Origin: Loripinus fragilis | Lineage: Eukaryota; Mollusca; Bivalvia; Lucinida; Lucinidae | Length of the DNA: 64,000 nucleotides | Direction: 5' to 3' | Assembly: GCA_964019695.1 (NCBI GenBank) | Contig: OZ026520.1 | Coordinates: 27,810,120 to 27,874,119, forward strand | Shown here: piece after piece, positions 31,401 through 61,400 of the stretch | Position numbering within the stretch: position 1 is the stretch's first letter | Layout: every line of letters starts with the position of its first letter | Program-made: the position numbers and the translations under genes | The notes under the pieces: generated by a model | Told to the model about the DNA's origin: nothing | What the model saw: the letters and a program-made list of their open reading frames with translations, nothing else | The model's database searches: none

Positions 31401-34400
31401 TGCGGCTACTCTATTCAGGACTATTAAAAGTGCACCACCTAAACTCGATTACTTGTGTGTTAATTCTACTAAGAGAAGATACAGCGAGAATCAATACCGA
31501 GAGATAACTACAGCCAATTGGGGCTTAGCTACAACCAACCAACCAACCAATCAAGCTTGCCCAGGAAATAAGTGTGGTTAAGTGAACTGACCATCCCAAC
31601 AGGACCATAGCTGTTGACTGGGACGTAAAGCATCAAGCCAAACAAAAAAAACAAAAACAAATTTATTTACTATTCCTTGAGAAGTCATATATTTACATTG
31701 CAGGCATTAAGAGTGTGTAATTGAAAATTTGTTTTCTTATTTCTCAACCAAGATATATGTTTTAGCTCAATGAGATGGCTCTTTTGAGAACCCAAAACAT
31801 ATGTATAAACTGATGGATAAGTAAATGATTACATATTCGAAGCAATGCTTTGATGAACCTTTAGATTTTTGCAAAGGTTCATAGCCTCATAAATGACACA
31901 AATATGACTAACAGCTGCCAAGCTCACTTGCCCTTGCAATACGCTTCGAACATCAAGCACATTCGCCAGAAGTGACACTGGTGTTGTGATTGACAGCGAG
32001 CCACACCTGAGTCGCACATGCAAAACAAGCCTCTTGTTTGCTCCATTGGCTGTCCATGTTCATGCTGGCTGTTCCGTTTTTCCGTTTGACACTCTGACAA
32101 AACATTTAATACAAATTCATATTAAATACAAAACTGTTTTGTTCCTAAATCATAAATAGTTTTTATATTCTAGATATTTATAATAAAATATTGATATAAG
32201 CAATTTTTGGTCTGTTTGTGGAATCATGAATACTTCGGGTCTCTTGCAAAGTTAACGTGAATTCGGCCTTCACTTTCTTTGCAAGAAACCCCAAGTATTC
32301 ATGATTCAATGAACATTCCAAAAATTGAATTCATTTCTTAAATGATTACAATTTTACTCTAAAATATTTTGCTTATCTGAATATATGCATTGTATATCTT
32401 TATGTTTCAGGTCTATTTATAAACTGACAGATTTTGGTGCAGCTAAAGAGTTAGAGCATGAAGAGGAACAGTTTATGTCATTGTATGGTACAGAGGAATA
32501 TCTGGTAATTTTATTATTATTGGAGCTAGCACATGAGCTTTTTAGCTCACCTAAGCCGAAGGCTCAAGGTGAGCTATTGTGATCAGTATTTGTCCGTTGT
32601 CTGTTGTCGGTTGTGCATAAGCATTTTCTTTAAACGAAATCTCCTCCTGAACCACTGGTCCAAATTTAAAATAATTTACATGAATGCCCGCTACCAAAAT
32701 TGCATAAATGGTTCTGCTTCACCAAACATGAAGGCCGACAGAGCTGTAAATAAGAAATCGTTGAAATGACATCTTTTCCTGAAGCACTGGTCCAAATTCA
32801 AATACAGAATTGTTCCTGAGGAGTGATACCCTCTACTTAAATTGCACAAATCATTCCGCTTCGATGAATAAAGGGGCCGCCAGAGCTCTAGATAAAAATG
32901 TCTTTCAACGACTTCTCCTGCACTAATGGTCCAAATTCAAAATAATTTCACAGAATTGTTCCTCATGATGCCTTCTACCAAAATTACACAAATTGTTTTG
33001 CTCTGCTGAACAATGGGGCTGCCAGATCTCTAGATAAGAAATATCTTTAAGCTGCATCTCCTGAACCACTGGTCTAAATTCAATATAATTTCACAGAATT
33101 GTTCCTCATGATGCGTTCTAGCAAAATTGCACAAATGGTTCCACTTAACTGAACAAAGGGGACACCAGAGCTCTAGATAAGAAATGTCTTTAAACGACAT
33201 CTCTTGAACCACTGGTCCAAATTCAAAATAATTTCACAAAAATGCTCCTCATAATCCCCTGGTCTAAAACTACACAAATGGTTCCTCTGCTGAACATGGG
33301 GGCCACCAGAGCTCTAGATAAGAAATTTCTTTAAACCGCTTCTCCCTAACTACTGGTACAAATTCAATATAATTTTACAGAAATGGTCCTCATAATGCCC
33401 TCTACTAAATTATACAAACGTTTTATCTGTGCTGAACAAAAAGGCCACCAGAGCTCTAGGTAAGAAATATCTTTAAATAACATCTCCTGAACCACTGATC
33501 CAAATTCAAAATAATGTCACAGAAATATTCCTCATGATGCCCTCTACCAAAATTGATCAGAATATTCAGCTCGGCTGAACAATATGGCCACCAGAGCTAA
33601 AAATAGAAATATTTTTTAAATGATATCGCTTAAGCCACAGGCCAATACATAATCTCTTCATGTGCCAGGATTCAGGTGAGAGATCCATGGCCATATGGCC
33701 CTCTTGTTATAATTATGGCACTTAGAAGACCAATAATGGCTCAGGCTAGCCTGCATATTCATGCAGTCTTACCAGAGTTATCACTGCTCTCATTCACAAA
33801 GTATTGAAGAGGATGAAGACTAGACATCTGGCCACATTAGATGTCTGCACATGGAAATGTAAAGTATACCTTTGGGCATGTCCAAAAAATTATATGGAGA
33901 ATAATACATAGTGTTTCAATGATATGAAAAATCTGTCATGAAGGCTTGTCTGAATACGTATAAACAATGAGTCCACATGCACATTCAGACGAGCCTTCAT
34001 GACAGGGTGGACTCGTTGTTTATATGTATTCAGACACCCTTTGTGACAGATTTTTCATATTAGGCAGACTCATTGTTTATGCCTATTCAGCTAAGCCTTC
34101 ATGACAGATTTGTCATATCATGGAAACAATGTATTATTCTGTACTAACATACTTTTTTAGTGTTTCCAAGAAAAAAGTGACAGAAAAAGGCAACAAAGAA
34201 AATATTAAAGTAGTTATACACAGGCAGACATGAAATTATACCATCACTAGTGAAATATATCACTACTCAAGATACATTAGCAATTACAAAAAAGTAGTAT
34301 ATCTTGCTAGTGAAATATTTCACTCCTCAAGATACTGAAACTATCTGACTGCTAATTAATTGGAAATTCATGCCAGGTATATAATATACTATTATAAATC

Positions 34401-37400
34401 ACTTCTGGAATTTCTATCATTAATAATAAATACAAAGTCTCATGAATAATTTTTCCGAATATAAGGGGTCCCATGCCCCAAATTTATAAAGATAGAAAAT
34501 CCCAGTTAGAATATTCCACAGGTTTAGATGAACAAAATATTTCAGCCTAAAATTGTAAAAATGTTCTTACCCATAATTTTTAGCTTATGTTTTGGGTGCC
34601 CCCAAAAAACATCTCAATGAGATGGTTCTTTTGAGTACCCACTAAATATGTTTTGGTTGAGAAATAAGAAAATTATTTTTCTGTTACACACTCTTAACTA
34701 AAGTCATGAAATTCTGTATGTTTACTTGATATAATTTTTCAGCATCCAGATATTTATCAGCGTGCTGTGTTACGTAACCCAGTGAGGAATGCCTTCACAT
34801 CCAAGGTGGATCTCTGGTCCCTAGGAGTGACACTGTTTCACCTTGCCACTGGCCAGCTGCCTTTCAAACCATATGGAGGGCGAAAAAATAGAGATAAAAT
34901 GTATGATAAAGTTTATTTTGTAGGCCTCACAAAAAAGTGGGGCTACCAAGGTAATCCCCAAATTTTCCACATCTATAAATGCCCTGCTCAATTTGCATTG
35001 GTGCAGCTCTTATAACTCATTTAGTCACATTGCATTATGAAAATTGTACACATTCAACTGAAATCACCTAATGTTAAAATCTAGTTTTTCAAACTAAAGT
35101 AGAACTTCAATGGCTTGAACTCTGATGGCTCATTCACACTGGCTGGCTAGAGCTGTAATTATGGTCCCTAAATGTCATTTAGTGCATAGCCCACCCTGGA
35201 TGGCTGGAACTACCCTTGGCTAGAACTATTTTCATGGTCCCAAGCCTGTTTGAGCCATTTAACTTATACTTTATAAGGGACTACTATAAAAGGAAAGAAT
35301 TTGCTCTCGGGAGCGAATTCTTTCCTTTAAGAGAAGTCCCTTCTATGAAAAGGGAAGTCCTCTTTATGAAAATGGACGCAATTGATGATAATCACTGCTC
35401 ATTTTAGTAGTCTGATTTCGATGTGCTTACTATTACTGTAAGAGCTTTCTGGCTATGTCCATGATTTGATATGATAGTTTACTGACTTGGATCTGTATAG
35501 TTCAAGTATTTGTTGTATTTTTCAAAAGTCATTTAATTTTTTTAATTCTGATGGATTATCCCATACATATTCATCCAATAAGTATCAAATTTTAAGTATC
35601 AAATTTTCCATTTTTTATTTTAAGGGTTGTTGGTCAAAATTTCTATAAAATTATGTATTTCTGTCGCTGAACATTAATTTTATCTTTGCAAACAGTGCAG
35701 TCCCTGATAAAATGCTCCCATATGCAGCATTTCATTTGGGTCTTCACTGTTTGCCAAGGTCATATTTTAAACACAATGCATTGAAAGAGACCGAAATCTC
35801 ATTATAGGTTTTTTTCTTTCTGAGTGCCCTAGAATTTAATGTGTATACCCAACTGCCATGTGGGACTGTATATTTAGTGCTTAGTCTTATCCTTAATCTA
35901 GTAGGAAACCTATATTTACATTGCATGAATGGGCAGACTCATTGCTATGGGATTATAGGAATGATTAAACAAGATTTTGTCATTTTGTACGCCACATTAT
36001 TATTGACATCATTACATAACATTGCTATATATGTAATCCATTAGTGGTTTATCAATTTTAATACATGCTGTTATATCACTTACGGATGTGATGTGTGATA
36101 AATATCAATGGTTTTGAGCTATCTCATTTATTCTTTTCTAAACTGATGTTGTGTCACTTTTACATTACAGTAGTCCTTTTTATAATATGCATGCGTTCAT
36201 AGATACTTTTATTAAAGGAGTCACATAATTAATAAGAAAAACTTATTTTGTTGTATGTGAACAACAAAGGTGCAGACCAGAGTGTACAGTTGCACAGGGG
36301 CTGATCAGACTTTGTTTTTTGTTTTCTGAAAAGTACACTAAAAATAACTTGTGTATCCCAATTTTCAACATTCTAGCTGGGGAGTTTACCTGGTAACTTA
36401 TCATATGAGCCAATTCATGGGATTTTTATATTCCTAGAACATGCCAGCCACAAAGCCTAAGATGAGCCTGCACATACATGCAGTCTCACTGGAGCCTTCA
36501 CTGTTGGCATACATGAAGTAGGGACATAGATGAAGGCTCTGGTCAAAAGTTAGGCATCTAGCCCCACTAGATAGCTAGGCATGCATGTCAAAAGAATATT
36601 ACATATGTAACAAAATCTCATGAACTGGCTCATTTTTCTTTGCCTCTATTCAGCAAAAATTTATACTTGCCCAGGGACAATTAAATGGCCAAAATGTACT
36701 TGTCCGAAGAACATTGTACTTGTCCTAAAGGGCAGATAATGCACAAACAACTTATGCGTAGCCCTTACTGTGCTGATACCAAATGTAAACTTTTTTAAAA
36801 CAGTATGAAAACAGATATAAACCTAATTCAAAACAGTGTAGATCCAAATCAGCTGGCTTCTGAAGAAGCCAGGTGATCAGGATCCACACTGTTTTCCAAA
36901 CAACATGCAAGTTTAAAATAATAAATCCAATTCGAAGTACAGAATTTAATCAACTTTATTCAACTTGTCCTGAATGAAATGGGACCAGGTTGGGCAAGTC
37001 GGGCATAATATTTCCATAGCTCTGCCTCTATTGCAGGTACCAGATCACTCGAGGTAAGGAGAGTGGTGTTATAATGGGTGTGCAGCTTACTGAGGGTGGT
37101 CCTATACAGTGGAGTAAGGAGTTACCACAGACCTGTAGGCTCTCACTGTAAGTAAAGATGTTTCAAAGTCTTAGACATGTAGGCTCTCCTTGTATATAAA
37201 TGAGCCATGACCTGCCAAAACAAAATGAATGAGTGTTAGACATGTATGCTCTCACTCTAAGTGAAGATTGTTTAAAGTCTTACCAAAGACCTGTAGGCTC
37301 TCCTTGTATAAAAATGAGCCATTACATGACAAAACATACATAATGAGTGTTAGACATGTATGCTCTCGCTCTAAGTGAAGATTGTTTAAAGTCTTACCAA

Positions 37401-40400
37401 AGACCTGTAGGCTCTCCTTGTATATAAATGAGCCATTACATGACAAAACATACAGAATGAGTGTGCGACATGTAGGCTCTTACTGTATGTGAAGATTGTT
37501 CAAAGTCTTACCAAAGACATGTAGGCTCTCCTTGTATATAAATGAGCCATTACATGACAAAACATACAGAATGAGTTTGCGACATGTAGGCTCTTACTGT
37601 GAGTGAAGATTGTTCAAAGTCTTACCAAAGACATGTAGGCTCTCCTTGTATATAAATGAGCCATGACATGACAAAACATACAGAATGAGTTTGCGACAGG
37701 TAGGCTCTTACTGTAAGTGAAGATTGTTCAAAGTCTTACCAAAGACATGTAGGCTCTCCTTGTATATAAATGAGCCATGACATGACAAAACATACAGAAT
37801 GAGTTTGCGACAGGTAGGCTCTTACTGTAAGTGAAGATTGTTCAAAGTCTTACCAAAGACATGTAGGCTCTCCCTGTATGTAAATGAGCCATGACATGAC
37901 AAAATGACCAGAATGAGTGTGTGCAGAGCTAAGACTCAGATCAGCTAGTTATTAGAGTCTTTGCCATGCACTCAGTGGGTGCCTATGGATTTAAGCTTTC
38001 TTTATGCATACAGAGAAGACTGATCAGGCTGAGTATATGCCTAGGCTCACTTATGTCTTGTAACACACAACCAATTTATCATTTTTTTACCCATCAATTT
38101 TAACATATGTTTTGGGTGCTCAAAAGAACCGTCTCATTGAGACAGTTCTTTTGAGTACCCTCAACATATGTTTTGGTTGAGAAATAAGAAAATTATTTTG
38201 TTAGGCCTGGATTCAATCATGTTTAATTGTAGTCAAAGGAAGTGCCAGCCATCAGGTGTTGATAATTGTATACATGGGTGAAAGTTTTCAGTAAGACAAG
38301 ACTGATCAAATCTTCAGACTGAACTGTCTCATCTGGTTGTCTGTCTGTTACCACACTCAACCTAATAATGTCACTGTGCACATAGCGTTTTCAAAATTTT
38401 ATACCCTCTCTTAAACTTTAAACAGTGTAGAACCAGGTCAGCTGAAGCCAGCTGATCAGGATCTAAATTGTTTTTCATCCACAAACATTGAATCAGTATT
38501 GATAATGAAATTACATCACTGTATTGACAAGAAAATCAAAAGTTCATATGGGCCAGCATAAGTCTTTGGTACTTCTAGCATAAGCGCTCGGATAGCCCAG
38601 TTGGTAGCATGTTTGGATACCTCTGCCGTGCAGGTTTGAATCTCGCAAGCGTTGCTAGCAAAAAAAAAATAGTGAAAAATTATCAACTTGTTTCTGCAGT
38701 GGTATATATCTCAATGGTTTGACTGTCACATGCCGGATTGCAGTGGTTTCACAGTGTATTTCCCGGCAAATGCCGAGAACTGCTCTGGCTTTCCCCCACC
38801 ACTAGGCAGTCGGGGTCTTAGAAGCAGAATTGCTTAAGTCAGATGTCTATCTCCAGTAAGTTCAATAAGGCCTCTATTAATTGCCCTGGCTGACCTATCC
38901 AGTTGGGCTAGTGCTCAAAATATTAGTCCTGAGTCTTTTCCACATCCATACCTTGTGTATGCCAGCAGAGAAGGCTCTGGAAAGTCTGTGTATTTGAGCA
39001 GGTTGGTCTGAGCCTTCTTTGCTCGACAATGCGATAAGTACTGAAATCTCATGTACTGGCCTATTCCATTAAGTTCTAAGTGTGTGCTTATCCCTTTACC
39101 TCATAGAGATACGTTTTAACACTTTTTGCATACAGAGCAGACCCAGATCAGGCAGCTCTTATAAGAGCTGCCTGATCAGTGTCTTATCTGTTTGCTTATA
39201 GAAATATGATTAGATGTGAGCCTACACTAGTGGACTGGGCAAGTTATTTATTTGTTGTATTTACAAACTTGAAAGTTCATTGATATAATTATTCATAGTG
39301 GGTGGAGCTTAGCATGAATATCCATGAAGGAAAGGGTTATACAATGTAGTAGCATGTGCTCTTATTTGATCAAATACGGTATGCTATGTTTTACTCTACA
39401 GAGGACTGAAGTTGTTGCTAACACCAGTGATAGCAGGATTGTTAGAGTCTAAGCCGGAGAGAGTGTGGACATTCGACTACTTCTTTCAACAGGTGGCAAC
39501 CATCATAAAGAAAATGGTGGTCCATGTGTTCAGCCCACAGAACTGGGCCCAACTTAAAGTTTACATCAATAAAGACAGCAAGTAAGTTGGGTTCTTTTGA
39601 GTAACCCTTTAGTGCCCTCTGCTGATTACCTTTTGCAAACAGTTTAGACCCAGATCAAGCCCAACAAAATGTTAGTCCTGATCTGGATCCAAACTGTTTG
39701 ACACTTTGATGATAGAGTAAAACCTGTCTTAAGCAGTCTTGTCAAAAAGAAGACCAAAATTGGATTTCAAGACCGATAATTGCTTAATGCATGTCAAAAG
39801 TATTGCAGAATGCTCCAAGAGAGCAATCTGCAATACTTTCGACCTTCATTAAGCTACCATTTGTCGTTAAGAATTCCGGTTTGTCTATTTTTGAGTGATC
39901 GTTTTACACAGGTTTAACTGTACATTGTATTTTTTTTTTAATCATAAAAAAGTTCCCAGCAACCAAATAGTTGAAATGTCAATCATGACTATTTTTTGTT
40001 ATATCTTCCTCAAATTTTGTGAGTATATATGGTTGACATTTCAGGTGTATCGTCTGCCAGTAGATAATCACATGAACTGTCAAGTCCAATTTGATTCCAA
40101 ACCAGTGACAAAATTTGAAAATGCCCTCTGCAACAACTTTTTGGTGGTTTTGTTTGATTTGATTCTTTACGTCCCAGTCATAAATTTTTCAGTTATGTCG
40201 GGACAGCCTTCCTGGGTTGAACCAGTACTAAGCAAGGATAAATGTGTCTTGCTCAAGGACACAACACATTGACGCCAGTGAGGCTTAAACTGGCAGCCCC
40301 TTGGTCTCAAGTGAAGCACTCTACCATTGAGCCACTGTGATCCCGCTTTTTGGTGGTACTTGAATTGTTAATTAGTTGGTTTTGCTGTGTAAACCCAGGG

Positions 40401-43400
40401 CCAAATAAAAACACACATTCTCATTTGAAATGTGATTTGTTTTTAGGTTGAAATATTCAAAATACACTGAAATACTGTGTCACACATGTTTGGGTATAAG
40501 AAGTCGTAACAATATGGGCCTCGACGCGAGAAATCCTGTCTTCGGGGCTTGCGAACGACAAAGACACAGACCAGCGCAGACTGATCAGAGCCTTTGTTAA
40601 ATTCACTATTTGGAACCTATCATATCTAAACTTACTACAAGTGAAATTTCACTATTCTAGCTAGTCTCTGTAAATGAGGAGGAGACTGGTTTGAGACTCC
40701 TTTTGTGTGGAAACCCCGAAGACAGGTTGTGCGTCAAGGCCCATATAATGCAGGATTTTTAAAGTATTACCTCATAGATTGATCTTTTTGAAGCAATAAG
40801 TTAATTTTATTTTGTCTGCTGAAGCATCATAAAATACTCTATACCTTTTATTAAATAAAATGTAACAACATTAGTGTATGAAGGCAGTGGCCCAGTGGTA
40901 AAGTGCTCGACTTGGGACTGAGGGGTCACTGGTTCAAGCTTCACCCAGGGCACTGTGTTGTCTCCTTGAGCAACACCATTTATCCTCTGCTTAGTATTGG
41001 TTCAGTGCAGGAAACATCCCGACTTGACTGAAATTTTTTAACTTGAACGCAATGCATCAAATGGAACAAAAAATACATACCAATACATGTATTAAAATCT
41101 AGTAAGGTTTAAAAGGCAAATCTTTGATTTATATAGTATATCTGACTAATCAAGGGACATAACACTGAATGACTAAACTATGCATAAAATATTTGTTATG
41201 TCCCTAAATTAGCAAAAGAAAAAAGAAAAAAAAGGATTGCTATTTACAAACTCCCCACTGTGCACTAGGTCATGTTTGACATCACCCATCCAAACAATAT
41301 TTACAGTAAAACCTGTGTAAAGCAGCCACTCACAAAAAGATCCAAAATTGGTTTTCAAGATCAATTATCACTGAATGCAGGTCAAAAGTTTTGCAGAATG
41401 CTCCAAGGGGAGCATTCTGCATTGCTTTCGACCTTCATAAAGCTTCCATTTGTCGTTAAAACCTTTAAAATTTGTTTTGTCTATTTTTGAGTGGTTGTTT
41501 TACACAGGTTTTACTGTATACAAAAACTTAAAAGAAGCTGATCAACCACTAAGACATAATCTATTGCATCCATAAATTAGGTTTTCATGGATTATTTTCG
41601 GGGGAGATAGTGAGAGATTTGCTCATGTTTCAGCCAAAAATCTCATTGAATTTTGCTTGATGGGAGAAAAATATCAATGCAAAATGTGTATATAGGGTAG
41701 GATTTTGTTAAGATTAATTTCTTGCCAAAATTAGAAGTTTCTCGTCAGTTTGGCTGAATGAAATATTTTCTCTCGAGAAATTATATTTTTTCATACTTGA
41801 TCTGAGGTTGTATATTCCTCTTGAGAAATTATATTTTTTCATACTTGATCTGAGGTTGTATATGTGTTTGTTTCAGTCTGACCCAGTTTCAAGAACTGAT
41901 AGCTGAACAGACAGAGATAGTATCTAATAACCAGTTACTGATATTTGACGGCCAGTTATTGACAGAATTTATTCAACCTATGCAGGCTATCATTGATTAT
42001 CCAAAAGGAATTAATGAGAACAATCCTGTTGTATGTTTTAATAAAGTAGCAGATGAATCCTATAAGTTCCCTGACTTCTCAATTAGTAAGTATATTGTCT
42101 ACATTTGAAGACAGCAGCCAGTTTTCATTCTATTTATTACGTGACATCACATCTGGGAGTGATAAAAACCACATGTATTAAAATTGATAAGCCACTAATG
42201 GTTACATAATATTATTTAGTAACTTTATGTAATAACAGCTACAAGGGCCATTTCACATACACTGAAACAGAACCGAAAAATTAAAATGCCTTAACACCTA
42301 TGAGTACTTCCACATATACACTGAACCAAAAACGTGCATGAATTGGATTTTATTGTTTCAGCAAATAAGACAGGTAATTTTGATTAATCTGCACACACAC
42401 AGCCACGGGGGTTGTTTATAAATTTGTAATCATGAAGTCATTGATGGATTGTCCAGCGAGACAATTGTGTGATTATTTTACAAGCACGATACTACAGACT
42501 TTTGTAGGGCAAGACCCAGAGCGACTATAAAGACCATGAACTTATGGCAGTGACATGGAACAATTTGTACTGTAAAGGTATTTCTGCTATCTGAGAGGGA
42601 AATTAGTCCAAATAATACAGGCATTTTCTTTGATTTTGTCCATGGATTATGTTCATCTGTGAAAGGTCTGCTGAAAACAAAATGATGCAATTCGGTTGCC
42701 GTTACGGTTTCGGTTCAGATTTGGTGTATATGTGAAATGGCTTTAACAAAATGCATCTATATATGGCAACCTCTTAGCATTTTTACACACAAAAAACACA
42801 ATTTCAAAGGAGTTTTAATTTTTTTTGTGATAAATAGAATCTAACATTCATGCTCCTGTATGATTGATTTTATAAAACAAGCTGTGGAAAAGTGATAAAA
42901 TTCCTGGCAAACCTTGAATTTATCACTTTTCCTCAACTTATTTAAACTTATATAAATTCAATAAGACATGAGCACACCCTTAAAATCCTCTATATTCAAT
43001 AGTTACCCAATATATTCTGATGCTGAAACTTCACACCATATAAACCTGTTCTTGTTTCACATATCTCTTATCTATTCTTCAGAAGAGTTCCCCAAGTTCA
43101 CCTCTAGTTTAAGCCCAGATGATTATCCTATAGCTAAGATGTGTTCAGGTATTTCTTGTTACACTATGAAGGAAGTTGAAGCTCATGTCAAGAAACAGGC
43201 CCTCCTCAGAAGATCAGTCCATGTTTATGTGTGAGTACAGTCAAACTTTGATGGCTCAAACTCGTCGGAACTGTCAATGTGAGTTTGACCCATCCATGTG
43301 TTCGAGTGATACCTAGCCTGACAATATTCAAGTTGGTTTATGTGTACTTTATGTCATCAAGGACATCACATTTTTTATCGACCAAAGTTGCAAAGCGCAT

Positions 43401-46400: not shown

Positions 46401-49400
46401 ATAGATAAAACAGATGTCTTAATGGTACATGATAGCTTGGAGCATTCTGCAATACTTTTGACCTGCATTAAGCGATAATCGGTCTTGAAAACCAATTTTG
46501 GTCTTCTTTTTGAGTGGCTCCTTAAGACAGGTTTCACTGTAGATAGTTATATTTTATTTATAGGCAAGAGCTTTATCATGAAATTCAACACTTATTGGAC
46601 TACCACCATTTTCTGAACAAGAATTGTCAGACTACGATTAGATGGAAAGAAATCTACGAGAGAATGTCTATGAGAGAACTAGAGATGGTGAATCTGTTGC
46701 CATGGGGACTGCAGGCTGGTGAAATTAACACATTTGTTCTAGAGCTACAGTTATTCCAGCAAGAATCTGACAGACGTCTTGATGAGACCTACCAGAAGGT
46801 ATGTACCATGTTGGCCTCGTAGCAAGAAAAATAAAGAGGAAGGCAAATATCAGGAATCAATACAAGCAAGTATCACACCTGACCCCATAGGTTTAGATAA
46901 ACACAATTTTAGAGCGTAAAATTATAAATATCTTTTTACCCATCAGTTTTAACATATGTTTTGGGTGCTCAAAAGAATCGTCTCATTGAGACGGTTCTTT
47001 CGAGTACCCACAACATATGTTTTGGTTGAGAAATAAGAAAATTAAATTTTTGGTACGCACTCTGAACTAAAGTCCTGTGACCCAGGACTGTCACAGGACT
47101 TTAAGTGACAAAAACACAAGAAAACATGCATTACACTAGAGCCAAGAGGTCAGCCCTTTCCCAGCAGGTGACCACAAAAACACAAGTAATAACAACACAT
47201 AAGAGAGCCAAGCCAGAAGGTGATCACAAGGCTGCAAGGAACAGACAAGACAGCATAACAAAGATAAACATGAAACATAAATAACAAAAATTATCCACAA
47301 AAGAAGACCCACCTTGGAACGATCAGTAAAACATTACTAGAGGGCTTAAACATAGTGTTGTATCGATGATCGATTATAATCGATGATCCAGGGTTTTACA
47401 TCAAGTTGAATGTTTGGGGGTCCTTTGGACTCAACTTTTAATATGATGGGGGTCCCATCATTGAAATTGGGGGTCCCATCTTTTTATGTAAGCTTCGAAT
47501 TTTGGAAGGTAGTACATCCTTCCGTGACGACTCAGTGTAACTGTGTTGTCCCCAGGTCAGTAATTTTGAGGGCCATGTTTGGCCCCCTTCCGATTTTTTT
47601 CGGGGGCCATTTGAATTTTTTTAGGGCCACATATTACCATCAGTGAAACACAATCCTATACGCTTTTTTTTTACAAAAGCTGAACTTGTCCCTATAATAT
47701 GCAGGACCAAGCTAGCCCTTAAATTTAGGGAGAAGTGACTTCTCTCTCCAGTACAAATAGGGAGAAGTTTCAGAAAATAGGGAGAAGTGATAGATTGCTG
47801 CATCCAGAAGACAGAAAAAAAAGTCTCTGGCCAGACTGTTCTCTAATTGAGATAAAAAAAATCACACAAAAAACAGTCACTGACCAGACTGCTACTTGCT
47901 TACCATTCTGAGAATTTGGTTGGTAAATTTGAAATACACATGATCTTGCTGTCATTGTATTCTATCTATCTGTCTACAAGTCTCCACTTATCTGAAGTCT
48001 CTGGTATCTTTGATCTCTTTGCCGACTTGAGCCTTTCCAAGTGAAAATGTTACGTAATTTGGCATATACAAAAGAATGAAAACTGTCAAGATAATTGCCC
48101 TTCACGCTTGAGCGGTCCGTTGAGTTGTCAGTGATTATTCGCATTATGAAAAAATCAATACACAAAGTCAGTGATGGACAACGTTTTCCATGCTTTTTAG
48201 CAGAGCGGACCTGAGAGAAAGCATGGTATTTTACGACTTTTTTTCACGGCCAATGTTTGCATGGATGTTTTAATACGAGATCAGTGCAGCAGTCTAAAAC
48301 AAGAGCACCTGTCCTATTTATTTATAGATAGCCTGTAGATATGGGAAAACCCGAATCGTTACGAAATAACTTAGGAATTTGGGATTTTAACGAAAGGCAC
48401 AGCAAACACATCTGCGTCCCAGTGGACGCAGGTAAGGTGAATTGACGGGTCCTACCTAATGATCTATGCGTATAAGACGCAGGATATTGCGTCCTGTAAA
48501 ACCCTGATGATCAATCGAAAATTTCTTTCGATTCTACTAATCGATTGTGTTTGGTAATAATCAATTATAATCGAAAAGATTCACACCTGACCCTCTTGTA
48601 TGCTACTATTCTAAATTTGCAACTTTGCTACAAGAAAATGCAATCCATAAATTGGAAGGTTTATAGAATGTGAGGAATAAAGAAATTAACTGTAGCCTAG
48701 TTTGCTGTGTATTCTATCCCCTTTAAAATCATGACTAAGAAGTCGTCAATGCAATCTTAACCCATTTTATGCTAATTTCTCCTAAATGCGTTCTTTAACA
48801 AAGAGTGAAAATGCAGCATTTCAACAGGGTATGCACTGTTTGCTATTAAGCACAGGGGCTTGAAGTTATGATTTTTGAGTGATTTTAGGCCTAGGGAAGC
48901 GTGATACATTATTTAGAATGTCGAAAATTCGACTATTTAAATATTGAAAAAATGTTCAAATCGAGTATAAGAAAAATGAATCGCTTGGTCAAAATTTTCA
49001 TTTTTTTCATTGGCTGTTATTTTCTGGAAATTTTTGAATGGAATTAAAGAGAAGGCACTTAAGCATCAGACAAGTCAGCAAATTTTCATAAATTCGAGCA
49101 CCTGTGCTATTAAGGACGTAAAAGATCTTCAGAGAAAGAAAAAATTATTTGGGAAAGATAACATGTGACCCCTTCAGAGAAAGAAATATTTATTTGAGAA
49201 AGATAACATGTGACCCCTTCATGTTTACAATGGACCTTCCCAAGCCAGAAGGAAAAATCCATAAGTGTATAAAGGGTTTAAAATGCCAAAGGCTGTTAAT
49301 TTGAGTTTGCTGTCAGGACCAGTTGTAGTATTTGATATTGTACATAAAACAGCATGACACTGAGGCTAGCAATTTTTATAAAGATAAGTGTTTCAAGTAG

Positions 49401-52400
49401 TACAAGGGTAGACATTCTATGGGATGGAACCTGTGTTTCCCTTTCATTTGATAATTTTCGATTATAATCGATCATCAATCGAAATCTCCTGACCAATTAT
49501 TTTCGATGATCGATTATGAAAAATCCAATAATCGAACAACACTACTTAAACATGTTTCACGGTACCTGTCTTTTGGGTTTTTGACCAAGTATGACTCAAA
49601 CCAACCTGCTCAGCTACAGAGACTAGCTAAATAAACCACTCTCATTGTTATTAACCAGGGGTTTCACATTCGAACCTAAGATACACCAGTCTGTGGGTTG
49701 TGTTTTAAAGCTGTGGCCCCATCTCCATATGACCTTAGTTGTTGGTGGGAGGTTAAATACAAAAACACACACACACCTTGGAGTTAAGATTTCCAAATAT
49801 TTACGGTAGCATATTTACCCAAATAAACATAGGCTAATGTTCTGATAAATTTTACAAATTTTATGCCATTTTTAGCACACCTATATGAAGTACAAGGAGA
49901 GATGTTTTGCCACCCTGACCCTCTGTGTGTGAGTCCAAGTGCTTGTCTCTGTTCCTGTCACTCTGCTTTAAAGTTTTCCGAATGCTTATATATAGGAGCC
50001 GCTGTGGTGTAGTGGATAAACTGCTTGCCTTGTAAACCAGGGGTTGCAGGCTCGATTCCCGGCTTCACCAGTCTGTCGGATGAGACTTTAAGCCGTGGCC
50101 CCGTCTACATATGACCTTAGCTGTTGGTGGGATGTTAAACACAAACACAACAACGAATGCTTATATGTTGACAATCACTTTTAAGAGAGCATTCATATTC
50201 AGAATATAGGTGCCTAGGAGGGGGTACTCATTATTTTCAAAATGGGATATTATATATTGGGCTTTAGCAGGGTTATGATTAACCCTTTCGTTCATGAATA
50301 TTCATGCTAGGATCCACCCACTATGAATAAGCGTATTAATAAATTTTCATGTTGGTACATAGAGCAAGAAAATTACATGTCAAGTCCACTAGTGTATTTT
50401 CATAAGCAAACAGATAAGACCCAGATCAGGCAGCTCTTAGAAGAGCTGCCTGATCTGGGTCTGATCTGTTTGCAAAAGTATTGAAATGCATCTCTATGAG
50501 GTAAAGGGTTAAATGATTTATTTTTGTCCAGGTTTCTAGATTGAGTAATTTGGTTTCAAATCAACTAGATGAGCTACGTTCCCATGAAATGGAAGGAAAA
50601 GTTCTAAAGAATCAGTGGTCCGATGAGTATGGCTGCTGCATTGATGACAGATGGTAAGATTAACACAATGACAGTGGTTGAGGACATTGCCAGGATTTTC
50701 AACACCTTTGGCCTATATTGTTTCCTGTACAAAGGAAATGTGATTACTCTAAATCTTGAAATTCTATGTACCTGATTGGCAGTCTAGATAGCCCAGTCAG
50801 TATTTAGTCAATTGAGTGAACTGACTAGCTACGGAATGCAGTAGAGGAGTTGTGATTTTGAACCATTGTCCTAAATATACTGCCATATACTTTCTTAGGG
50901 ATAAACTCTCCCTATTGTTGATTCAAGTAGAGTGGTTGCCAGTTACTGAAAAAGCATGAAAACATCAATTTTTGGTGAAGACTCCCAAGGAACAGTCTGA
51001 TAGGCTACATGCCTTTTAAAAGATAAGAGTGTGTAATTAAAAAATGTTGTTAGTACTCACAAGGACTCACTGAATCCAATAACAGTGAGTCCTTGATGTG
51101 TTATCTTAGTCCAGAGCCGAGGGCATTGGGTCAATGGTAGAGTGTTAGATTTAGGATTGAAGGGTCCCTAGTTTGAGACTCATTGAAGGCACTGTGTTGT
51201 GTCCTTTAACAAGACACTGCAGGGCTTACCCTGGCTCAAAATTTGTTTTAACACTTTAACCAACTTGACAAATGTGAGGCAAATGAAATTGACTTTAGCC
51301 AAGGTTTTAGCCAGAAAGTACGTAGTATCAAGAAGTTGTTCTGTATTAAACTTTTTGCTCACTAGCGGCGACTTTTGTCATCTGCTGATAGCCTTTGCAA
51401 ACAGTTTGGACTCAGATCAGGCCCAACAAAATGTTGGGCCTGATCTGGATCAAAACTGTTTGACACCCTGATGGTATACTATTGGAAAAAAATCCAGCAT
51501 TCAAAGAGTTAGGTATGGCACAATAATAAAGTGTAAAGGAATAATTAAAGCAATATTGGAAAATCCAAAAGTTGATCAAACTACACTTTGATAAGTAAAT
51601 TTTGAACCACCTAGAGTGTACTTTTAGCCAATGACTTATATTTGTAGCCACTCTACATTTTTAGTAGCAAATGGCTACAATGGCTAATGGCAGGGTAAGC
51701 CCTGGCTTTGTACTGGTTCAACCCAGGAAGACAGGATAACGTCCAGACATGACTGAATTTTTTTTGATTGTGATTTAAAGCACTAAACTCTAGTTTTTAT
51801 GTTCTTCACATTGATTTTCAGCAGTAACTTATTTATTACTAATTTTAGCAAACTGTGTTCGAGATGAAACTTGTAGAGTAAAATTAGCGCCAATTTCTCC
51901 TTATGGTTCCATAATCCAAGATGCTGCAGTTAACCCTGCGCATAGATGCACTCTTTGAGATTTTTAATCAAAGCTCAAATAAACTAAGATAAATATGTCA
52001 GTCAAAAAGCTACAGTTCACCACCCTAATTCAATAACTAAAGTGATGGATGGCTTGTTTAAATATATTGGAAATCACGCCTGATTCGCTCGTGCATTAAG
52101 CTACTGGGGTCATCTCGAAACCGCCCGTTTTGGAGCATGTGCATAAGAGAAAAAGAGCATGTCATGCATAATCACAGCTTCTGCTCCTACAAATGATCAC
52201 GCTCAAATAAGATTCTGAATTTGCAAACAGCAGGATTATGCTATGCACAGCCGCTGAATAATGGTATATTCACCGCTTGTGAATATTCTTTTGAGACGAA
52301 CCCTTTCTGTCACGCCTCTACGAAATTTACCTGTCAATAAAAGACTTAGAAATATTGGCTAAATTCCATTTATCGCAAATTCTTCATCTATGTACGCAAA

Positions 52401-55400
52401 AATCTGTTTGGGCCAAAAACTTCGGACCTTTTGGAGAAATTGGCACTCATTTTCCTGTACAACCTTCATCGCGATCACATTTTCCTAACATTGAAAGTAA
52501 AAAAGTCATCGCCGAAAATCAATGTGAAAAACATAAAAACTAATGTTTAACACAAAAAAATATTCAAAATATTAGTGAGTACTGGAACTCACAAAAATTA
52601 AAAAAAAATACAAATCCCAAAAACTAAGGAAATCTTATGTGAAAATCTAGCGCAACTCACAGGTAAATACTAACACTGATCAAACCAGTTTGAAGAATCC
52701 ATTTGTAGTATAAAATAGTTAAACAAAAAGTGCATGCTAATCTGATTAAAGCATTTTATGAAAATAGTTGGTTGATTTGATTCTTTACATCCCAGTCAAC
52801 AATCTTTCAGTTATGTTGGGACGGGTCTTCCTGGGTTGAACCAGTACTAAGCAAGGATAAATGTGTCTTGCTCAAGGACTCAATGCAGTGGCGCCGGTGA
52901 GGCTCCAACCCGCGGCCATTTGGTCTTGAGTCAAGCACACTACCACTGAGCCCCTGCGCTCCCTATTTTATGAGAATAGTAAGTATAAATACAGTGCAGT
53001 CCCTTTATAACATTACGTTTGGGGTCCATAGGAATGGACTGCGGTATATTTGAATCATGTTATAAAGTGACAATTTCATATAGGAATTGTAGGAAAATGA
53101 CCATTTTATGGTCATTTTCTTATAATTCCTATATAAAATTTCATAAAAACAAGGAGCCACAACATGACCATGTTATATCCAAATCTGTGTTATAATGAGG
53201 TGTGTTATAAAGGAACTGTACTGTAGTCAGAAATCAAGAATGTTGATCATAGGTTGGATTGTTGTTTTTTTTCAGTGTTGATAAAATGGGAGTACTTGTT
53301 AACCATGTGTTGAAGATAAGGGCTAAATTTAATGAAGATCGCAAGAAACCCTCACTAAACTTCAATGATGAACAGATACATAAATTTGACAAGTAAGTCT
53401 CTTTAACTGTTTACCCAGTCTTAAGCTTTTTTTCCTTAACGCATGCCTTAATGCTCATGCATTTACCAAGAAATAAATATAAAACGCTGGAAAATGAACA
53501 CCTGATTTTACTACAGCATTAGAGACTGTGCCTTTTGATTTCAATGGAAATTTTGATTTTTTTCAAAAGTAAACAATGGATAATTTGTTAAACAAGTGTT
53601 CAATATTAATGATAATGGAAATGTTTTTTTGTGAGTGATTTTATGAGAGTGATAAAAATTAAGTTGCTTAGATATCTATGCACAAAGCTGCTTGAATCCA
53701 TTGACAAATTAGCAAAAATCCATGTTCAAATCATGAGGTTCATGTGCTGTTTAAACATAGGTTTTAATTTGACATTTCTAAATATGAGTCCTGATTTGTT
53801 AAAAAGTTTACAAACTCATGTCATTTTGTATAGCAATAATGTAAGGTAAATCATATATTAATGATTTAACAGCCTTTTCATTGCCATTTTCAGATAAAAT
53901 GCATAAATAATAGCTACACATTAAATTTTGCTTCATTGCTGTAACACTTGGCAGGTTCTGAAGAAGCTGTTTAGACTTAAGGTGTTGGATTAAGGACTAG
54001 TGGGTTTGTTTTCAAACAGCTTTCTAGGGCGACCAGGCAAAATGATAATGCATGAAAAATTATGTATGCATTTATGAAGTTATAGGTATTAACTGCCGGT
54101 TGTTGCCATTAGCAGCAGTTAACATGCTCTGCTACACAAACAGCTTGTATATAATCCTAGTGACACCCAAAGTTAAATACCATAGCCTTTAATTGAATTT
54201 TGTATTTTAGGAACAAGCTGAGTGAATGGTGTATTAAGGTGAAATCTCTGTTTCATGATCACTGTTTCACAAGAGCCAGACAACAATATAGACAGTTCTT
54301 AGCCTGGTATAGGTAAGTTATTGTAGGAACAAGCTGAGTGAATGGTGTATTAAGATGAAATCTCTGTTTCATGATCACTGTTTCACAAGAGCTAGACAAC
54401 AGTATAGACAGTTCTCAGCCTGGTATAGGTAAGTTATTATAGGAACAAGCTGAGTGAATGGTGTATTAAGATGAAATCTCTGTTTCATGATCACTGCTTT
54501 ACAAGAGCCAGACAACAATATAGACAGTTCTTAGCCTGGTATAGGTAAGTTATTATAGGAACAAACTGAGTGAATGGTGTATTAAGATGAAATCTCTGTT
54601 TCATGATCACTGCTTCACAAGAGCCAGACAACAATATAGACAGTTCTCAGCCTGGTATAGGTAAGTTATTGTAGGAACAAGCTGAGTGAATGGTGTATTA
54701 AGATGAAATCTCTGTTTCATGATCACTGCTTTACAAGAGCTAGACAACAGTATAGACAGTTCTTAGCCTGGTATAGGTAAGTTATTGTAGGAACAAGCTG
54801 AGTGAATGGTGTATTAAGGTGAAATCTCTGTTTCATGATCACTGCTTTACAAGAGCCAGACAACAGTATAGACAGTTCTTAGCCTGGTATAGGTAAGTTA
54901 TTGTAGGAACAAGCTGAGTGAATGGTGTATTAAGGTGATATCTCTGTTTCATGATCACTGCTTCACAAGAGCAAGACAACAGTATAGACAGTTCTTAGCC
55001 TGGTATAGGTAAGTTATTGTAGGAACAAGCTGAGTGAATGGTGTATAAAGGTGAAATCTCTGTTTTATGATCTCTGTTTCATGAGAGCCAGGCAACAGTA
55101 TAGACAGCTCTTAGCCTGGTATAGAAAAGTTATTGTAGGAACAAGTTGAGTGAATGGTGTATTAAGGTGAAATCTCTGTTTCATGATTACTATTTCACAA
55201 GAGCCAGGCAACAGTATAGACAGTTCTTAGCCTGGTATAGGTTAGTTATTGTAGGAACAAGCTGAGTGAATGGTGTATTAAGGTGAAATCTCTGTTTCAT
55301 GATCACTGCTTTACAAGAGCCAGACAACAGTATAGACAGTTCTCAGCCTGGTATAGGTAAGTTATTGTAGGAACAAGCTGAGTGAATGGTGTATTAAGGT

Positions 55401-58400
55401 GAAATCTCTGTTTCATGATCACTGCTTTACAAGAGCCAGACAACAGTATAGACAGTTCTCAGCCTGGTATAGGTAAGTTATTGTAGGAACAAGCTGAGTG
55501 AATGGTGTATTAAGGTGAAATCTCTGTTTCATGATCACTGCTTTACAAGAGCCAGACAACAGTATAGACAGTTCTCAGCCTGGTATAGGTAAGTTATTGT
55601 AGGAACAAGCTGAGTGAATGGTGTATTAAGGTGAAATCTCTGTTTCATGATCACTGTTTTACAAGAGCCAGACAACAGCATAGACAGTTCTTAGCCTGGT
55701 ATAGGTAAGTTATTATAGGAACAAGCTGAGTGAATGGTGTATTAAGGTGAAATCTCTGTTTCATGATCACTGCTTTACAAGAGCCAGACAACAATATAGA
55801 CAGTTCTTAGCCTGGTATAGGTAAGTTATTGTAGGAACAAGCTGAGTGAATGGTGTATTAAGGTGAAATCTCTGTTTCATGATCACTGTTTTACAAGAGC
55901 TAGACAACAATATAGACAGTTCTCAGCCTGGTATAGGTAAGTTATTGTAGGAACAAGCTGAGTGAATGGTGTATTAAGGTGAAATCTCTGTTTCATGATC
56001 ACTGCTTTACAAGAGCCAGACAACAGTATAGACAGTTCTCAGCCTGGTATAGGTAAGTTATTGTAGGAACAAGCTGAGTGAATGGTGTATTAAGGTGAAA
56101 TCTCTGTTTCATGATCACTGTTTTACAAGAGCTAGACAACAGTATAGACAGTTCTTAGCCTGGTATAGGTAAGTTATTGTAGGAACAAGCTGAGTGAATG
56201 GTGTATTAAGGTGAAATCTCTGTTTCATGAGAGCCAGACAACAGTATAGACAGTTCTTAGCCTGGTATAGGTAGGTTATTGTAGGAACAAGCTGAGTGAA
56301 TGGTGTATTAAGGTGAAATCTCTGTTTCACAAGAGCCAGACAACAGTATAGACAGTTCTTAGCCTGGTATAGGTAGGTTATTGTAGGAACAAGCTGAGTG
56401 AATGGTGTATTAAGGTGAAATCTCTGTTTCATGAGAGCCAGACAACAGTATAGACAGTTCTTAGCCTGGTATAGGTAGGTTATTGTAGGAACAAGCTGAG
56501 TGAATGGTGTATTAAGGTGAAATCTCTGTTTCACAAGAGCCAGACAACAGTATAGACAGTTCTTAGCCTGGTATAGGTAAGTTATTATAGGAACAAGCTG
56601 AGTGAATGGTGTATTAAGGTGAAATCTCTGTTTCATGATCACTGCTTTACAAGAGCCAGACAACAGTATAGACAGTTCTAAGCCTGGTATAGGTAAGTTA
56701 TTATAGGAACAAACTGAGTGAATGGTGTATTAAGATGAAATCTCTGTTTCATGATCACTGCTTTACAAGAGCCAGACAACAGTATAGACAGTTCTAAGCC
56801 TGGTATAGGTAAGTTATTATAGGAACAAACTGAGTGAATGGTGTATTAAGATGAAATCTCTGTTTCATGATCACTGTTTCACAAGAGCTAGACAACAGTA
56901 TAGACAGTTCTCAGCCTGGTATAGGTAAGTTATTGTAGGAACAAGCTGAGTGAATGGTGTATTAAGGTGAAATCTCTGTTTCATGATTACTATTTCACAA
57001 GAGCAAGACAACAGTATAGACAGTTCTCAGCCTGGTATAGGTAAGTTATTGTAGGAACAAGCTGAGTGAATGGTGTATTAAGGTGAAATCTCTGTTTCAT
57101 GATCACTGCTTCACAAGAGCAAGACAACAGTATAGACAGTTTTTAGCCTGGTATAGGTAAGTTAAATTGATAGTGTATTAGAAGATTTACTACACATCAC
57201 CAAAAAGTCATGGAAAATGAACAGTTTTAAGTTCATGGAATTATGAGCACTGTTAGAAAAAATATAGGCAATGTAAGGGAATTTGAAAATAATGAGATTC
57301 AAGGCCATATTAACAATGAATCAAATTATCCAACTAATAAGTTGAAAGCATTGTGTCCAGATATGATACTCAAGTATTTAGAATTTCTTTCTGTAAATGT
57401 TCCAAAATTTTGAAGACTAGTTGTTGGCCAAACAGGTTTAGACAAACAGTACAGACAAAAAGTACAGACCCAGACCAGACTGCTTCTGAAGAAGCAGTCT
57501 GATCAGGTTCTTTCCTGTTTGCTATATTCTGACAAGCATTTTGTGAATGCCAGCCTTGATAACCGACATTTTATTTGAGAACAGAGAGAATAAATGGTTT
57601 GGAATTTTAGAACATTTACAGTATATGCAAGTTTCTAACCAATTTAAAATACTTGACTTAATTGTCTGTTGGATTTAATTCTTTACGTCCAATCAACAAT
57701 CTTTCAATTATAAAGGGACGGGTCTTCCTGGGTTGAACCAGTACTAAGCTAGGATTAATGCGTCTTGCTCAAGGACACAACACAGTGATGCTGGTGAGGC
57801 TCGAACCCGCGGCCCCTCTGTCTGGAGTCAAGCACTCTACCACTTAGCCACTGCACTCCCAAATACTTGACTTAAGTACTGTAGTGTTGGTGTGTATTTC
57901 CTTTTCACTAAAATGCTTATTCAAGAATAAAAATACACTCAGTGGCCATTGTGTTTTTACAACAGTAAAATTAATTTAAGCTCCCCCTTCCCATCCCTCC
58001 CTCCCCAGTGGCTTTTTCTGTTGTTTATTGTTGCTCTCATTGTGGGTTTTTTGTGTTTAATAGGTACTTGTTTTGTCACAGTACCGTGGGATAGTCTGTA
58101 GTGTGTGATTGTGGCATTTCCTGGTCATACACTCTTACTTTTTTCAAATTTTGCCTGAGCATTTTCTGCTTACTTATTCGATAAGAACCCAAATCTCAGG
58201 AGCTGACTAAATTTTCCTTATTCTTTGAAAAGTAATATTCTATAAGTTTTGAAAAGTATTACATTAAAACCTGTGTAAAACCTATTTAAAATGACCACTC
58301 AAAAATAGACAAAACAAAGGTCTTAATGACAATTGGCAACTTATTGAAGGTCAAAAGTATTGAAGAATGCTCCCCTCGGAGCATTCTGTGATACTTTTGA

Positions 58401-61400
58401 CCTGCATTAAGCGATAATTGGTCTTGAAAACCAATTAGGGTCTTTTTTTAGAGTGGTCGTTTTACACAGGTTTTACTGTAAATTAACCCTTTTTATACTG
58501 TTATATTATTCCATACATGCTGATACAATAAGGATGGAATAATCCAGTTTGTAATTAAAGGGGTTGCCAGTCAAAATATTTCAATATATATGATATAGTT
58601 CTGCCCCTGAATATTGTTTTTATCTAAGTTAACAGTGCAAACCCTGATGAAATGCCGCTTTATGCAGCATTTTATTGGGACGTCATTGTTTGCCAAAGTA
58701 CCTGTTTACCTGTATCCAGCATGAAAATGTTTACTACATAGTCACAGCTCCAGACAAGAGTGTGTATTGGAAAACTATTTTCTTTATTTCTCATCCAAAA
58801 CATATGTTGTGGGGACTCAAAAGAACTGTCTCAATGAGACGGATCTTTTGAGCACCCAAAACACATGTTTAAATTCATGGATAAGAAAATAATTACAATT
58901 TCACGCTCATTTCCTTATCTGAACCTATGAAAGTGATTTAATACTTGCAGATCTGCCCAGGAATGTAGAGTTGAATCTGAGAGAGTTGAGAAGAGACTTC
59001 TAGATTTGGCCGAGGAACAAGAAAAACTTGCAGAAACATTGAATGAAGTAGGTTTACTTATCTCCAAATGAAGTTTTTGACACAGGTAGCACAGTGGCTC
59101 AGTGGTAGAGTACTTAACTTGAGACCAAGGGGTCATGGTTTGAGCCTCACTAGCTTCAATGTGTTGTTTCCTTAAGCAAGACACATTTATCCTTGCTTAG
59201 TACTGGTTCAACCCAGGAAGACCCATCCCAACATAACTGAAAAATTGTTGACTGGGGCGTAATGAATCAAATCAAAAACAAAAAAAAAGTTTTTTTACAA
59301 GATGTGTAGAATTAAACCTGAAATAATCCTTGTGGTCCAGCAAAATTATAGTGTTCTCAGGAGTGTAGCCATCTATACCTGTAGGAGATAGAATACTGCA
59401 AAAAGTGGTCTAAAGTTTGGTTTAGCACCATCCCTGTTCTGGTGTCTGAGACAGGGTTCCCACAAGCTCTGGAAATCATGGAAAACCTTAAAAATCACGA
59501 AAAAGATCCATGCATGGAAAAGCCGTGGAATTTGAAAAAAAATGAATAATCATGGAAAAATCATGGAATTTTGTGAAATAGTTTGATGAAACAACCAATA
59601 GCCAGAAAACTAGCTGTCAGACACACAAAACTTCAAGTTTTAATCATTTCAAAATGCATGCATGGTCTACAAGCATGCTTATTTTAATACATTACTGTTG
59701 CTGCATCCTGCATTTATGCTCAATGTGGTGAAGATGCAGCTAAAAGGGGAGGTTGGAGGCCATGCATTGAATAGTCATAGAAATTTCATTGTTGATCATG
59801 GGAAACCATTGAAAACTCATGGAATTGTGTTTTTGGATTTATTTTGGAACCCTGCTGAGATCACTGTCATGCATTTCCCGTAATGTGTGAGTGAATATTT
59901 TCAATGTATTATTATACCATATAACAGTGCCATTTCATGCAGAGTCAAAGCCATATATTTGGCCCATTAAAAAAAAGTCGTAGCAATAGTCATGCAGGTT
60001 ATATGTGCCCTACACAGGATACTTTGTCTAGTTGTGACACATTCTAATGATGAAGACAACTACTCTATGGTTGTTTACACTACATTTCCATATTATTTGC
60101 AGTTGGTTCAGATCTACACTGTTTACAAACAAGGTTAACAACTTTGAAAAAAGTTTATGCTAGCATGGGTGAAAGTTTTTAGGATTAATCCTGAATTTAG
60201 GATTTTGAGGCTGACTTTCCATAGAAAGTCAGCCTCAAAATGCTGAATTAAGGAGATTAGAATAGCTTCTTTGATTAGTTTTCAGATTAACTTAACACAA
60301 TTAATCACTTAAACATTAAATTATCCATTTTTGTAGCCATCATTTGAATGTCAAAAGTTTAGGATTTTGGAAATTTTGAACTTTCATCAATGTGCTAGCA
60401 GTGTTAGTACTTATCAGGCCTTATACAGTAAGTCATTGATGATAGTTTTACAATATAATGAGGAGCTGCCATGGTGTAGTGGATAAACCACTCACCTTGT
60501 AAGCCAAAGGTAGAAGGTTTGATCCCTGTTTTCTCTATCCTATCAGATGAGATGCTAAGCCATGTGACCTTAGCTGTTGGTGGGGTGTAAACATAAAACA
60601 CTCTCAAAATCAATGAAACCTAGTGATTTTCAGCATGCTTTACTGGGCCCCATAGTACAATCGTTATTAAGGCTTATTGCAGATCCAGGTGTTATGATTT
60701 TGATCCCTGCCCTGGAAGTGAAGATTATGAAATATTTTATTTTTGTCATTCTCCTCCTTTTGCTGATTCAAGAAAGGTCAGTGTCAGTTACAAGCGAAAA
60801 TATGTGCACATAGTACTGGTTAACCTCTTAGTCAAGCTTGTCCAGGAAAAAGTATATGGTTTGGCTAACTGACCATCTTGACATGACCATAGCTGTTAAC
60901 TGGGACGTAAAACCACAAACCAAACAAAAAAACATGCTTGAAAGTAACCAGTTTTATTTTATTTTGCAGCAATGTTTGTTGTTTCATGAAAAGATAGATG
61001 AGTTTATAAAACACCTAAAAGATAAAGACAGACCAGGCTCAGGATCTAGGAGTACTGCAGTAGTTTCAAAGAAAGTGTCCAGTGATCTTACTAGTCAGCA
61101 TACTATGAACCTCGTTAGACAACTTGTTAATTGGTAAGTAACATTACAATATTTATTATTCACCATATTTATTTAATTTAGTAACTTTTATTTTTTATCA
61201 ATGACCTCTCATATTAACTGCATTGTTGCATGTTGACCCGATAAACGTTGTCTATCTCACTGCATGTATCTTTATGAGGTCAACATGGCGCTGTACTTTC
61301 TGAATGATGTAGATAATGTTGAGTCAACACGAAAATCAATAATTAGGTCATAAGAGTGAACCTATGGGTAAACTGATAATTACAATACCAGGTGCGCATC

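Follow-up and report, generated by a model that had tools for sequence, protein, structure and literature searches.

Twenty-six tandem copies of a whole exon in a TBK1-like gene of the lucinid clam Loripinus fragilis, with a normal acceptor region at the first copy only

The question raised by this locus is what becomes of an exon that stands 26 times in a row within its own gene. The initial annotation of the window (the whole 64,000-nt stretch analysed here, positions 27,810,120 to 27,874,119 of contig OZ026520.1) left three readings open, i.e., a harmless expansion from which one copy is used, a mutually exclusive set, and a source of protein length variants. We favor the first because copy 1 alone has a normal acceptor, seven copies are broken, and 34 additional residues would fall within a continuous predicted helix; the other two are less likely, and use of further copies is kept open because of a weak excess of synonymous variants.

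The host gene is TBK1-like, with a kinase domain, a ubiquitin-like domain, and a TBK1_CCD1 scaffold in the order that defines TBK1/IKK-epsilon. Pfam matches on its translation are all above cut-off (PF00069 at 12-238, PF18396 at 310-390, and PF18394 at 406-675), and among the matches listed, the first named ones are bivalve TBK1-like proteins (Mya, Mactra, and Ruditapes) at 56-61%. The gene model has GT-AG introns and a single open frame of 754 aa with no break, an intactness that covers the 17 visible coding exons, as the 3' end of the gene lies outside the window (Table 1). The repeated exon is the 14th of these; it is 102 nt long, has phase 2-2, and encodes 34 residues. The gene model and the division of the array into units thus bear out what had been proposed about the identity of the gene, the number of the exon, its symmetric phase, and the 14-nt spacers.

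Table 1. Positions in the window of the visible coding exons of the TBK1-like gene and of its three splice-site arrays.
Feature	Position	Strand	Basis or remark
Exon 1 (coding part)	1976..2068	+	tblastn with P0002 and P0005, splice sites; further ATG at 1973
Array A	4099..5539	+	17 units: 12 x 88 nt, 3 x 75 nt, 1 x 89 nt (at 5304), last at 5481
Exon 2, kinase, VAVK	5481..5621	+	tblastn, splice sites
Exon 3	7268..7397	+	tblastn, splice sites
Exon 4, HRD motif	14506..14596	+	tblastn, splice sites
Exon 5, DFG motif	32411..32504	+	tblastn, splice sites
Exon 6	34743..34900	+	tblastn, splice sites
Exon 7	37037..37147	+	tblastn, splice sites
Array B	37130..37921	+	114-nt unit, 7.0 copies; last bases of exon 7 and donor region
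Exon 8	39402..39581	+	tblastn, splice sites
Exon 9	41877..42085	+	tblastn, splice sites
Exon 10	43083..43230	+	tblastn, splice sites
Exon 11	46564..46798	+	tblastn, splice sites
Exon 12	50532..50653	+	tblastn, splice sites
Exon 13	53276..53392	+	tblastn, splice sites
Exon 14 copy 1	54211..54312	+	sole copy with normal acceptor environment
Exon 14 copies 2-26 and spacers	54313..57156	+	copy 8 without donor, 18-21 frameshifted, 22-23 with stop
Exon 15	58951..59047	+	
Exon 16	60970..61133	+	
Exon 17	63381..63452	+	3' end is a donor, so the gene extends past the window

The window also contains a Penelope-like ORF with matches of up to 99% to ENA proteins and of 76 and 81% to two proteins from MAGs with the name Candidatus Thiodiazotropha, a genus of lucinid symbionts.

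Tandem Repeats Finder reported the exon 14 repeat as a single array at 54203-57164 with a period of 116, 26.0 copies, and 94% matches. When cut at the exon start, the array yields 26 units (54211-57156), which confirms the number and extent of copies given in the initial annotation; the unit length of 116 bp given there holds for 22 units, but the remaining four (copies 18-21) measure 102 nt. The whole exon with both splice dinucleotides is repeated head to tail, and the full 102-nt exon is present in 22/26 units, making this a tandem exon duplication. The acceptor AG is kept in all 26 copies, the donor GT in 25 (copy 8 has lost it), and the donor sequence TAG/GTAAGT in 21. The idea that nearly all copies retain splice sites and an open frame is therefore correct for the splice dinucleotides, but only 19/26 copies combine an open frame with a GT donor. 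Seven copies are broken: copies 18-21 are frameshifted by a 14-nt deletion, copies 22 and 23 have an in-frame TAA, and copy 8 has lost its donor.

The smallest introns that we encountered as described are those of the ciliate Stentor, at 15-16 nt (PMC9505925), and the 14-nt spacer is shorter still, which supports the earlier suggestion that neighboring copies would not both be used. Two ways of reading the array in full were rejected. If it is read through as one long exon, a TAA is reached directly after copy 1, and many more stops occur across three translated copies; inclusion copy by copy is ruled out by the 14-nt introns, the frameshifts, and the stops. A model in which eight chosen copies are joined in frame gives 992 aa with no stop, although it serves as a reading-frame check only and contains neighboring copies 5 and 6.

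A normal acceptor region is found at copy 1 only. The acceptor score is 7.7 for copy 1 and -1.7 to 0.8 for copies 2-26, and the AG-free stretch upstream of the acceptor is 23 nt for copy 1 and 7-8 nt for copies 2-26; for native acceptors that lie outside the arrays (n=14) it is 15 to 57 nt, 57 being the limit of the stretch searched. The pyrimidine fraction at -20..-4 is 0.35-0.47 in copies 2-26 versus 0.47-0.82 in native acceptors. Two native acceptors, those of exons 15 (-0.4) and 17 (-4.9), have matrix scores no better than those of copies 2-26. The first branch-point rule is passed by 13/14 native acceptors and by copy 1, and by 0/25 later copies, which are near identical, so that this result amounts to about one observation. 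None of the later copies passes at three of five loose-motif settings or at any of five yTnAy settings. All 25 pass at the two most liberal loose-motif settings, via a poor CTTAG or CTCAG at -26; we would like to note that the loose-motif settings are unspecific, with 52-94% of random intronic AGs passing.

The explanation that we consider probable is a minisatellite that has captured a whole exon, with copy 1 spliced in and copies 2-26 removed with intron 14. A tandem duplication would have taken exon 14 along with flanking intron (about 8 nt on the 5' side and 6 nt on the 3' side), with a short shared TA at the junction, and unequal exchange with patchy conversion would then have led to growth to 26 copies. 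The spliceosome would pair exon 13 with copy 1, whose acceptor alone is preceded by native intron, and would exit by the donor of that same copy; with copies 2-26 discarded within intron 14, the protein would contain a single 34-residue segment and TBK1 would keep its normal length. The array itself, the gene model, the asymmetry of the splice sites, the broken copies, and the mosaic of variants are observed, whereas we infer the origin of the array, the copy used, and the near-neutrality of the remaining copies.

The variation among copies is that of a minisatellite, i.e., of near-identical units with exchange or conversion. The mean difference between full-length copies is 4.6 of 102 positions, all four gametes occur in 15/15 pairs of six common variant sites (22 full-length copies; mean r2 0.039), and alleles are common to neighboring copies more than by chance (P=0.0044), although recurrent mutation might contribute to this mosaic. 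Among the distinct exon variants (n=22; the 22 full-length copies, without 18-21), 11 are synonymous versus 6.3 expected (P=0.025), and among shared variants only, 7/12 are synonymous versus 3.6 expected (P=0.036). This weak excess hints at coding constraint, past or present, on more than one copy. Variants at the exon ends are fewer than expected (3/22 versus 8.6, P=0.009), in a region picked after the data were seen; for exon ends plus spacer the count is 8/27 versus 12.6 expected (P=0.057).

Could some transcripts combine copies that are not neighbors, and so encode TBK1 forms in which the scaffold helix carries additional stretches of 34 residues? We regard this as unlikely. The symmetric exon lets joined copies stay open, skipping one copy leaves an intron of 130 nt, and the donors common to most copies and the synonymous excess point the same way. 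Against these stand the poor acceptors of copies 2-26 and the truncation that copies 18-21 or 22-23 would cause. Moreover, 34 residues are one fewer than five heptads, and the exon 14 equivalent lies within one 106-residue helix in the structure predicted for the relative P0005; an extra copy would probably lengthen one helix without its partners. The best 120 of 1819 matches to an 8-copy query (7992 candidates scored) include no protein of this species and nothing longer than the 847-aa protein P0164.

P0164, a predicted TBK1-like protein of the brittle star Amphiura filiformis, is the one relative that favors multi-copy splicing. Of 171 relatives, 55 have an exon 14 match at the cut-off and only P0164 has two, so that, as in the clam, a segment homologous to exon 14 is repeated, here in a predicted protein and identical over 32 residues. 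It differs in having two copies with 33 unrelated residues between them, in belonging to another phylum, and in being known from gene prediction only; the 33-residue insert looks like a predicted intron, which argues against multi-copy splicing, and P0165, also of Amphiura filiformis, has one copy of the segment. A 7-mer check of the 171 relatives flagged 10, including P0164, whose repeat was missed by an uninformative self-BLAST. Dreissena P0004 has its 7-mer repeat at the start of the exon 13 equivalent, P0093 has 14 repeated 7-mers at 546-633, and the other seven have one or two.

A mutually exclusive set, in which one copy is chosen, perhaps depending on tissue, would fit spacers that probably bar the joining of neighbors, and copies do differ at V/M and L/S positions. 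Nevertheless, we give this little credence: the protein is otherwise nearly identical, so that little would be gained by choice, 14 nt leave little space for intronic selector sequences, variants are shuffled and distinct types not kept, and the normal acceptor region is confined to copy 1. In known Dscam1-type mutually exclusive clusters, the introns are ordinary and the copies have diverged, and the units of LPA KIV-2 carry full introns. As in the Dscam1, hydra, and pip clusters, a whole exon is repeated in tandem within a gene and its copies are rivals for the same neighbors (PMC9013439); in contrast to Dscam1-type clusters, the clam array has 14-nt spacers, few differences between copies, and later copies without a normal acceptor region. 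The oyster alternative oxidase exon 10 is likewise a bivalve tandem exon duplication with a splicing choice, but has two terminal exon copies that are 63.5-65.9% alike, with both forms seen as mRNA (PMC5589949). The LPA kringle IV-2 coding VNTR also has many copies of a protein-coding unit, although its units are 5.6 kb and that of the clam is 116 nt with adjacent copies that would not both be used. No literature report of a TBK1 exon array was found, most subscription journals being outside coverage.

Beyond the initial annotation, two further splice-site arrays are present in the same gene, array A at the acceptor of exon 2 (17 units) and array B at the donor of exon 7 (7 units). Each array A unit carries the 3' end of intron 1, acceptor included, followed by the beginning of exon 2, the last unit being the real exon 2 start. 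AG is kept in 16/17 units including real exon 2 (the unit at 5304 lacks it and is left out of the branch-point count), and none of these 16 fails at any branch-point setting; if the 5393 unit is read on into exon 2, the frame is shifted and a stop follows. Of the seven main-register units of array B, the first of which is the native donor, five have GT and two CT. Of the five arrays in the gene with the highest scores, three cover a splice site (P=0.0026 under a placement model, with arrays chosen post hoc).

This clustering, the AG-bearing units of array A with the truncating outcome at 5393, and the 25 GT donors of the exon 14 array would suit a decoy role for the splice-site arrays, by which productive splicing of this immune kinase would be reduced or adjusted according to copy number. 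We consider that improbable, as chance and tolerance account for the same facts and the case is based on one gene. Still less probable is an assembly artefact, with the exon 14 array shorter or single-copy in the animal: assembly errors are common in tandem repeats, but the copies contain many distinct variants and neighbors are alike, the array is below 3 kb and inside ordinary long-read length, and the same error would be needed for the two other arrays.

With 26 exon units, spacers shorter than any described intron that we found, equal donors, and poor acceptors, the locus is a natural experiment on spliceosome choice, and it shows that an intact-looking immune gene can bear exon amplification. 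The presence of three splice-site arrays in one gene raises the question of whether splice sites are prone to amplify. There is a slim chance that the three arrays (17, 7, and 26 units) change fast, vary in copy number between animals, and set the amount of correctly spliced TBK1 or its length. If other copies of exon 14 were used, this would be a new way of varying the scaffold of a signaling kinase.

The window comprises animal DNA that includes retroelements, and its + strand carries a TBK1-like gene that runs from exon 1 (~1976) to exon 17 (63452) and continues past the window. The gene model, built by tblastn with bivalve relatives and with splice sites placed by hand, has 17 coding exons, GT-AG at every intron, and a single open frame of 754 aa as far as the window end. 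Its Pfam domains (kinase, ubiquitin-like, CCD1 scaffold) follow the TBK1 order, and the first named among the matches listed are the TBK1-like proteins from Mya, Mactra, and Ruditapes. The repeated exon, number 14 by order of visible coding exons, forms a real, extreme tandem exon duplication. A full unit (116 nt; 22 units) comprises the 102-nt exon, with phase 2 at entry and exit, plus a 14-nt spacer (GTAAGTTATTGTAG or a near variant). The remaining four units (copies 18-21; 102 nt) have 14 nt deleted and are thus frameshifted, copies 22 and 23 contain TAA, and copy 8 has lost its donor; an open frame with a GT donor is found in 19 of the 26 copies.

Repeat arrays and retroelement features in the window
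Feature	Positions	Strand	Description
Exon-14 array	54203-57164		26.0 copies reported
Array A	4099-5539		17 units: intron 1 end + exon 2 start; last unit is the real exon
Array B	37130-37921		seven 114-nt units: exon 7 end + donor region
Intronic array	32679-33616		143-nt unit repeated ~6.6 times with 76% matches; 175 nt 3' of exon 5
16-nt repeat	63513-63637		7.8 copies; directly downstream of exon 17
Gypsy-like polyprotein frames (label assigned by reading the translation)	16169-20488	-	494 and 944 aa; intron 4 of the TBK1-like gene
Direct element copies	20495-23888; 24536-27926		99.0% identity over 3398 nt
Direct repeat	15271-16021; 28634-29385		99.3% identity over 752 nt

Judging from the unit boundaries, the duplication would have joined the post-exon GTAAGT to the 8 nt preceding exon 14, with TA common to both flanks of the proposed join. 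These 8 nt read TATTTTAG at copy 1 and TATTGTAG or TATTATAG inside the array. Among the 22 full-length copies, six common variant sites fall inside a 62-nt stretch; four allele combinations occur in 15/15 pairs of these sites, and their mean r2 (0.039) is not above the level for unlinked sites. Allele sharing by adjacent copies was 77 vs 64 when shuffled (P=0.0044), a neighbor effect not expected if the assembly had been scrambled at random. The variant mosaic fits exchange with patchy conversion, and recurrent mutation is a possible added contributor.

The acceptors of copies 2-26 look poor, though not impossible. Upstream of the acceptor, 7 or 8 nt are free of AG in these copies, 23 in copy 1, and 15 to 57 (57 being the maximum distance examined) at the 14 native acceptors, i.e., those outside the arrays. 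Pyrimidine content is 0.35-0.47 in copies 2-26 vs 0.47-0.82 at native acceptors, and falls below the mean of 2972 intronic AGs (0.51). The outcome of a branch-point test, run under five settings, varies with the rules chosen. With a loose TnA motif and AGs skipped no farther than 8 nt from the branch point, the test passes 13/14 native acceptors, copy 1, and 52% of random AGs but none of the 25 later copies, which are nearly identical and so count as roughly one observation. Skipping up to 12 nt passes 14/14 native acceptors, copy 1, and 0/25 later copies (random AGs, 66%); the 8-nt rule with the last 12 nt ignored passes 13/14, copy 1, and 0/25 (random AGs, 87%). Under the two most liberal settings, which approximate those of Gooding and others (PMC1431707), all 14 native acceptors, copy 1, and all 25 later copies pass, the latter via CTTAG or CTCAG at -26, along with 91-94% of random AGs. 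With the fuller motif yTnAy, later copies pass in 0/25 cases under all five settings, and five or six of the 14 native acceptors fail. Acceptor matrix scores of copies 2-26 (-1.7 to 0.8) lie within the range of native exons 15 (-0.4), 12 (0.6), and 17 (-4.9), on a matrix with few training sites that serves as a guide only. In contrast to the acceptors, the donors read TAG/GTAAGT in 21/26 copies.

Splice sites are repeated elsewhere in the gene. Array A keeps its AG in 16/17 units, and those 16 pass every branch-point setting; 13 nt are missing from three 75-nt units, and the AG is lost in the unit at 5304. Array B has GT donors in five of seven units (native included) and CT in two. When the gene's arrays are ranked by score, three of the top five cover a splice site (0.26% under random placement of single units, for a five-array set picked after seeing the data). 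Regarding the retroelements, we take the two direct element copies to be Penelope-like, and the direct repeat flanking the Gypsy-like and Penelope-like block may represent the long terminal repeats that enclose a nested insertion.

Exon 14 encodes model residues 611-644, aligned with positions 588-621 in a bird TBK1 of 729 aa (P0138). Its equivalent in the relative P0005 (residues 623-656) lies inside a single helix, 612-717, of a predicted structure with mean pLDDT 83.2. The 34 residues fall a single residue short of five heptads, and an extra copy would be expected to move the heptad register by one position and make one helix of the bundle ~50 Å longer, which argues against routine inclusion of multiple copies. 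Among 171 relatives, the segment was seen twice only in a predicted TBK1-like protein of the brittle star Amphiura filiformis (P0164, residues 614-710), the single result with two copies in a protein model. The 33 residues separating them look like a predicted intron, so this case leaves the odds of the explanations unchanged. A predicted Dreissena polymorpha protein (P0004) has a short duplication, VQKVHVIVTQI, at residues 572-597, where the exon-13 equivalent begins.

Across the 22 full-length copies, the exon shows 22 different variants, of which 11 are synonymous, 10 change a residue, and one introduces a stop. The 11 synonymous variants exceed the 6.3 expected without constraint (P=0.025), in a small sample of non-independent copies that copy 1 may seed via conversion; we take this excess as a weak sign against the copies being pure passengers. 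The best reading, which we favor by a modest degree, is that exon 14 became trapped in a minisatellite and that the gene uses copy 1.
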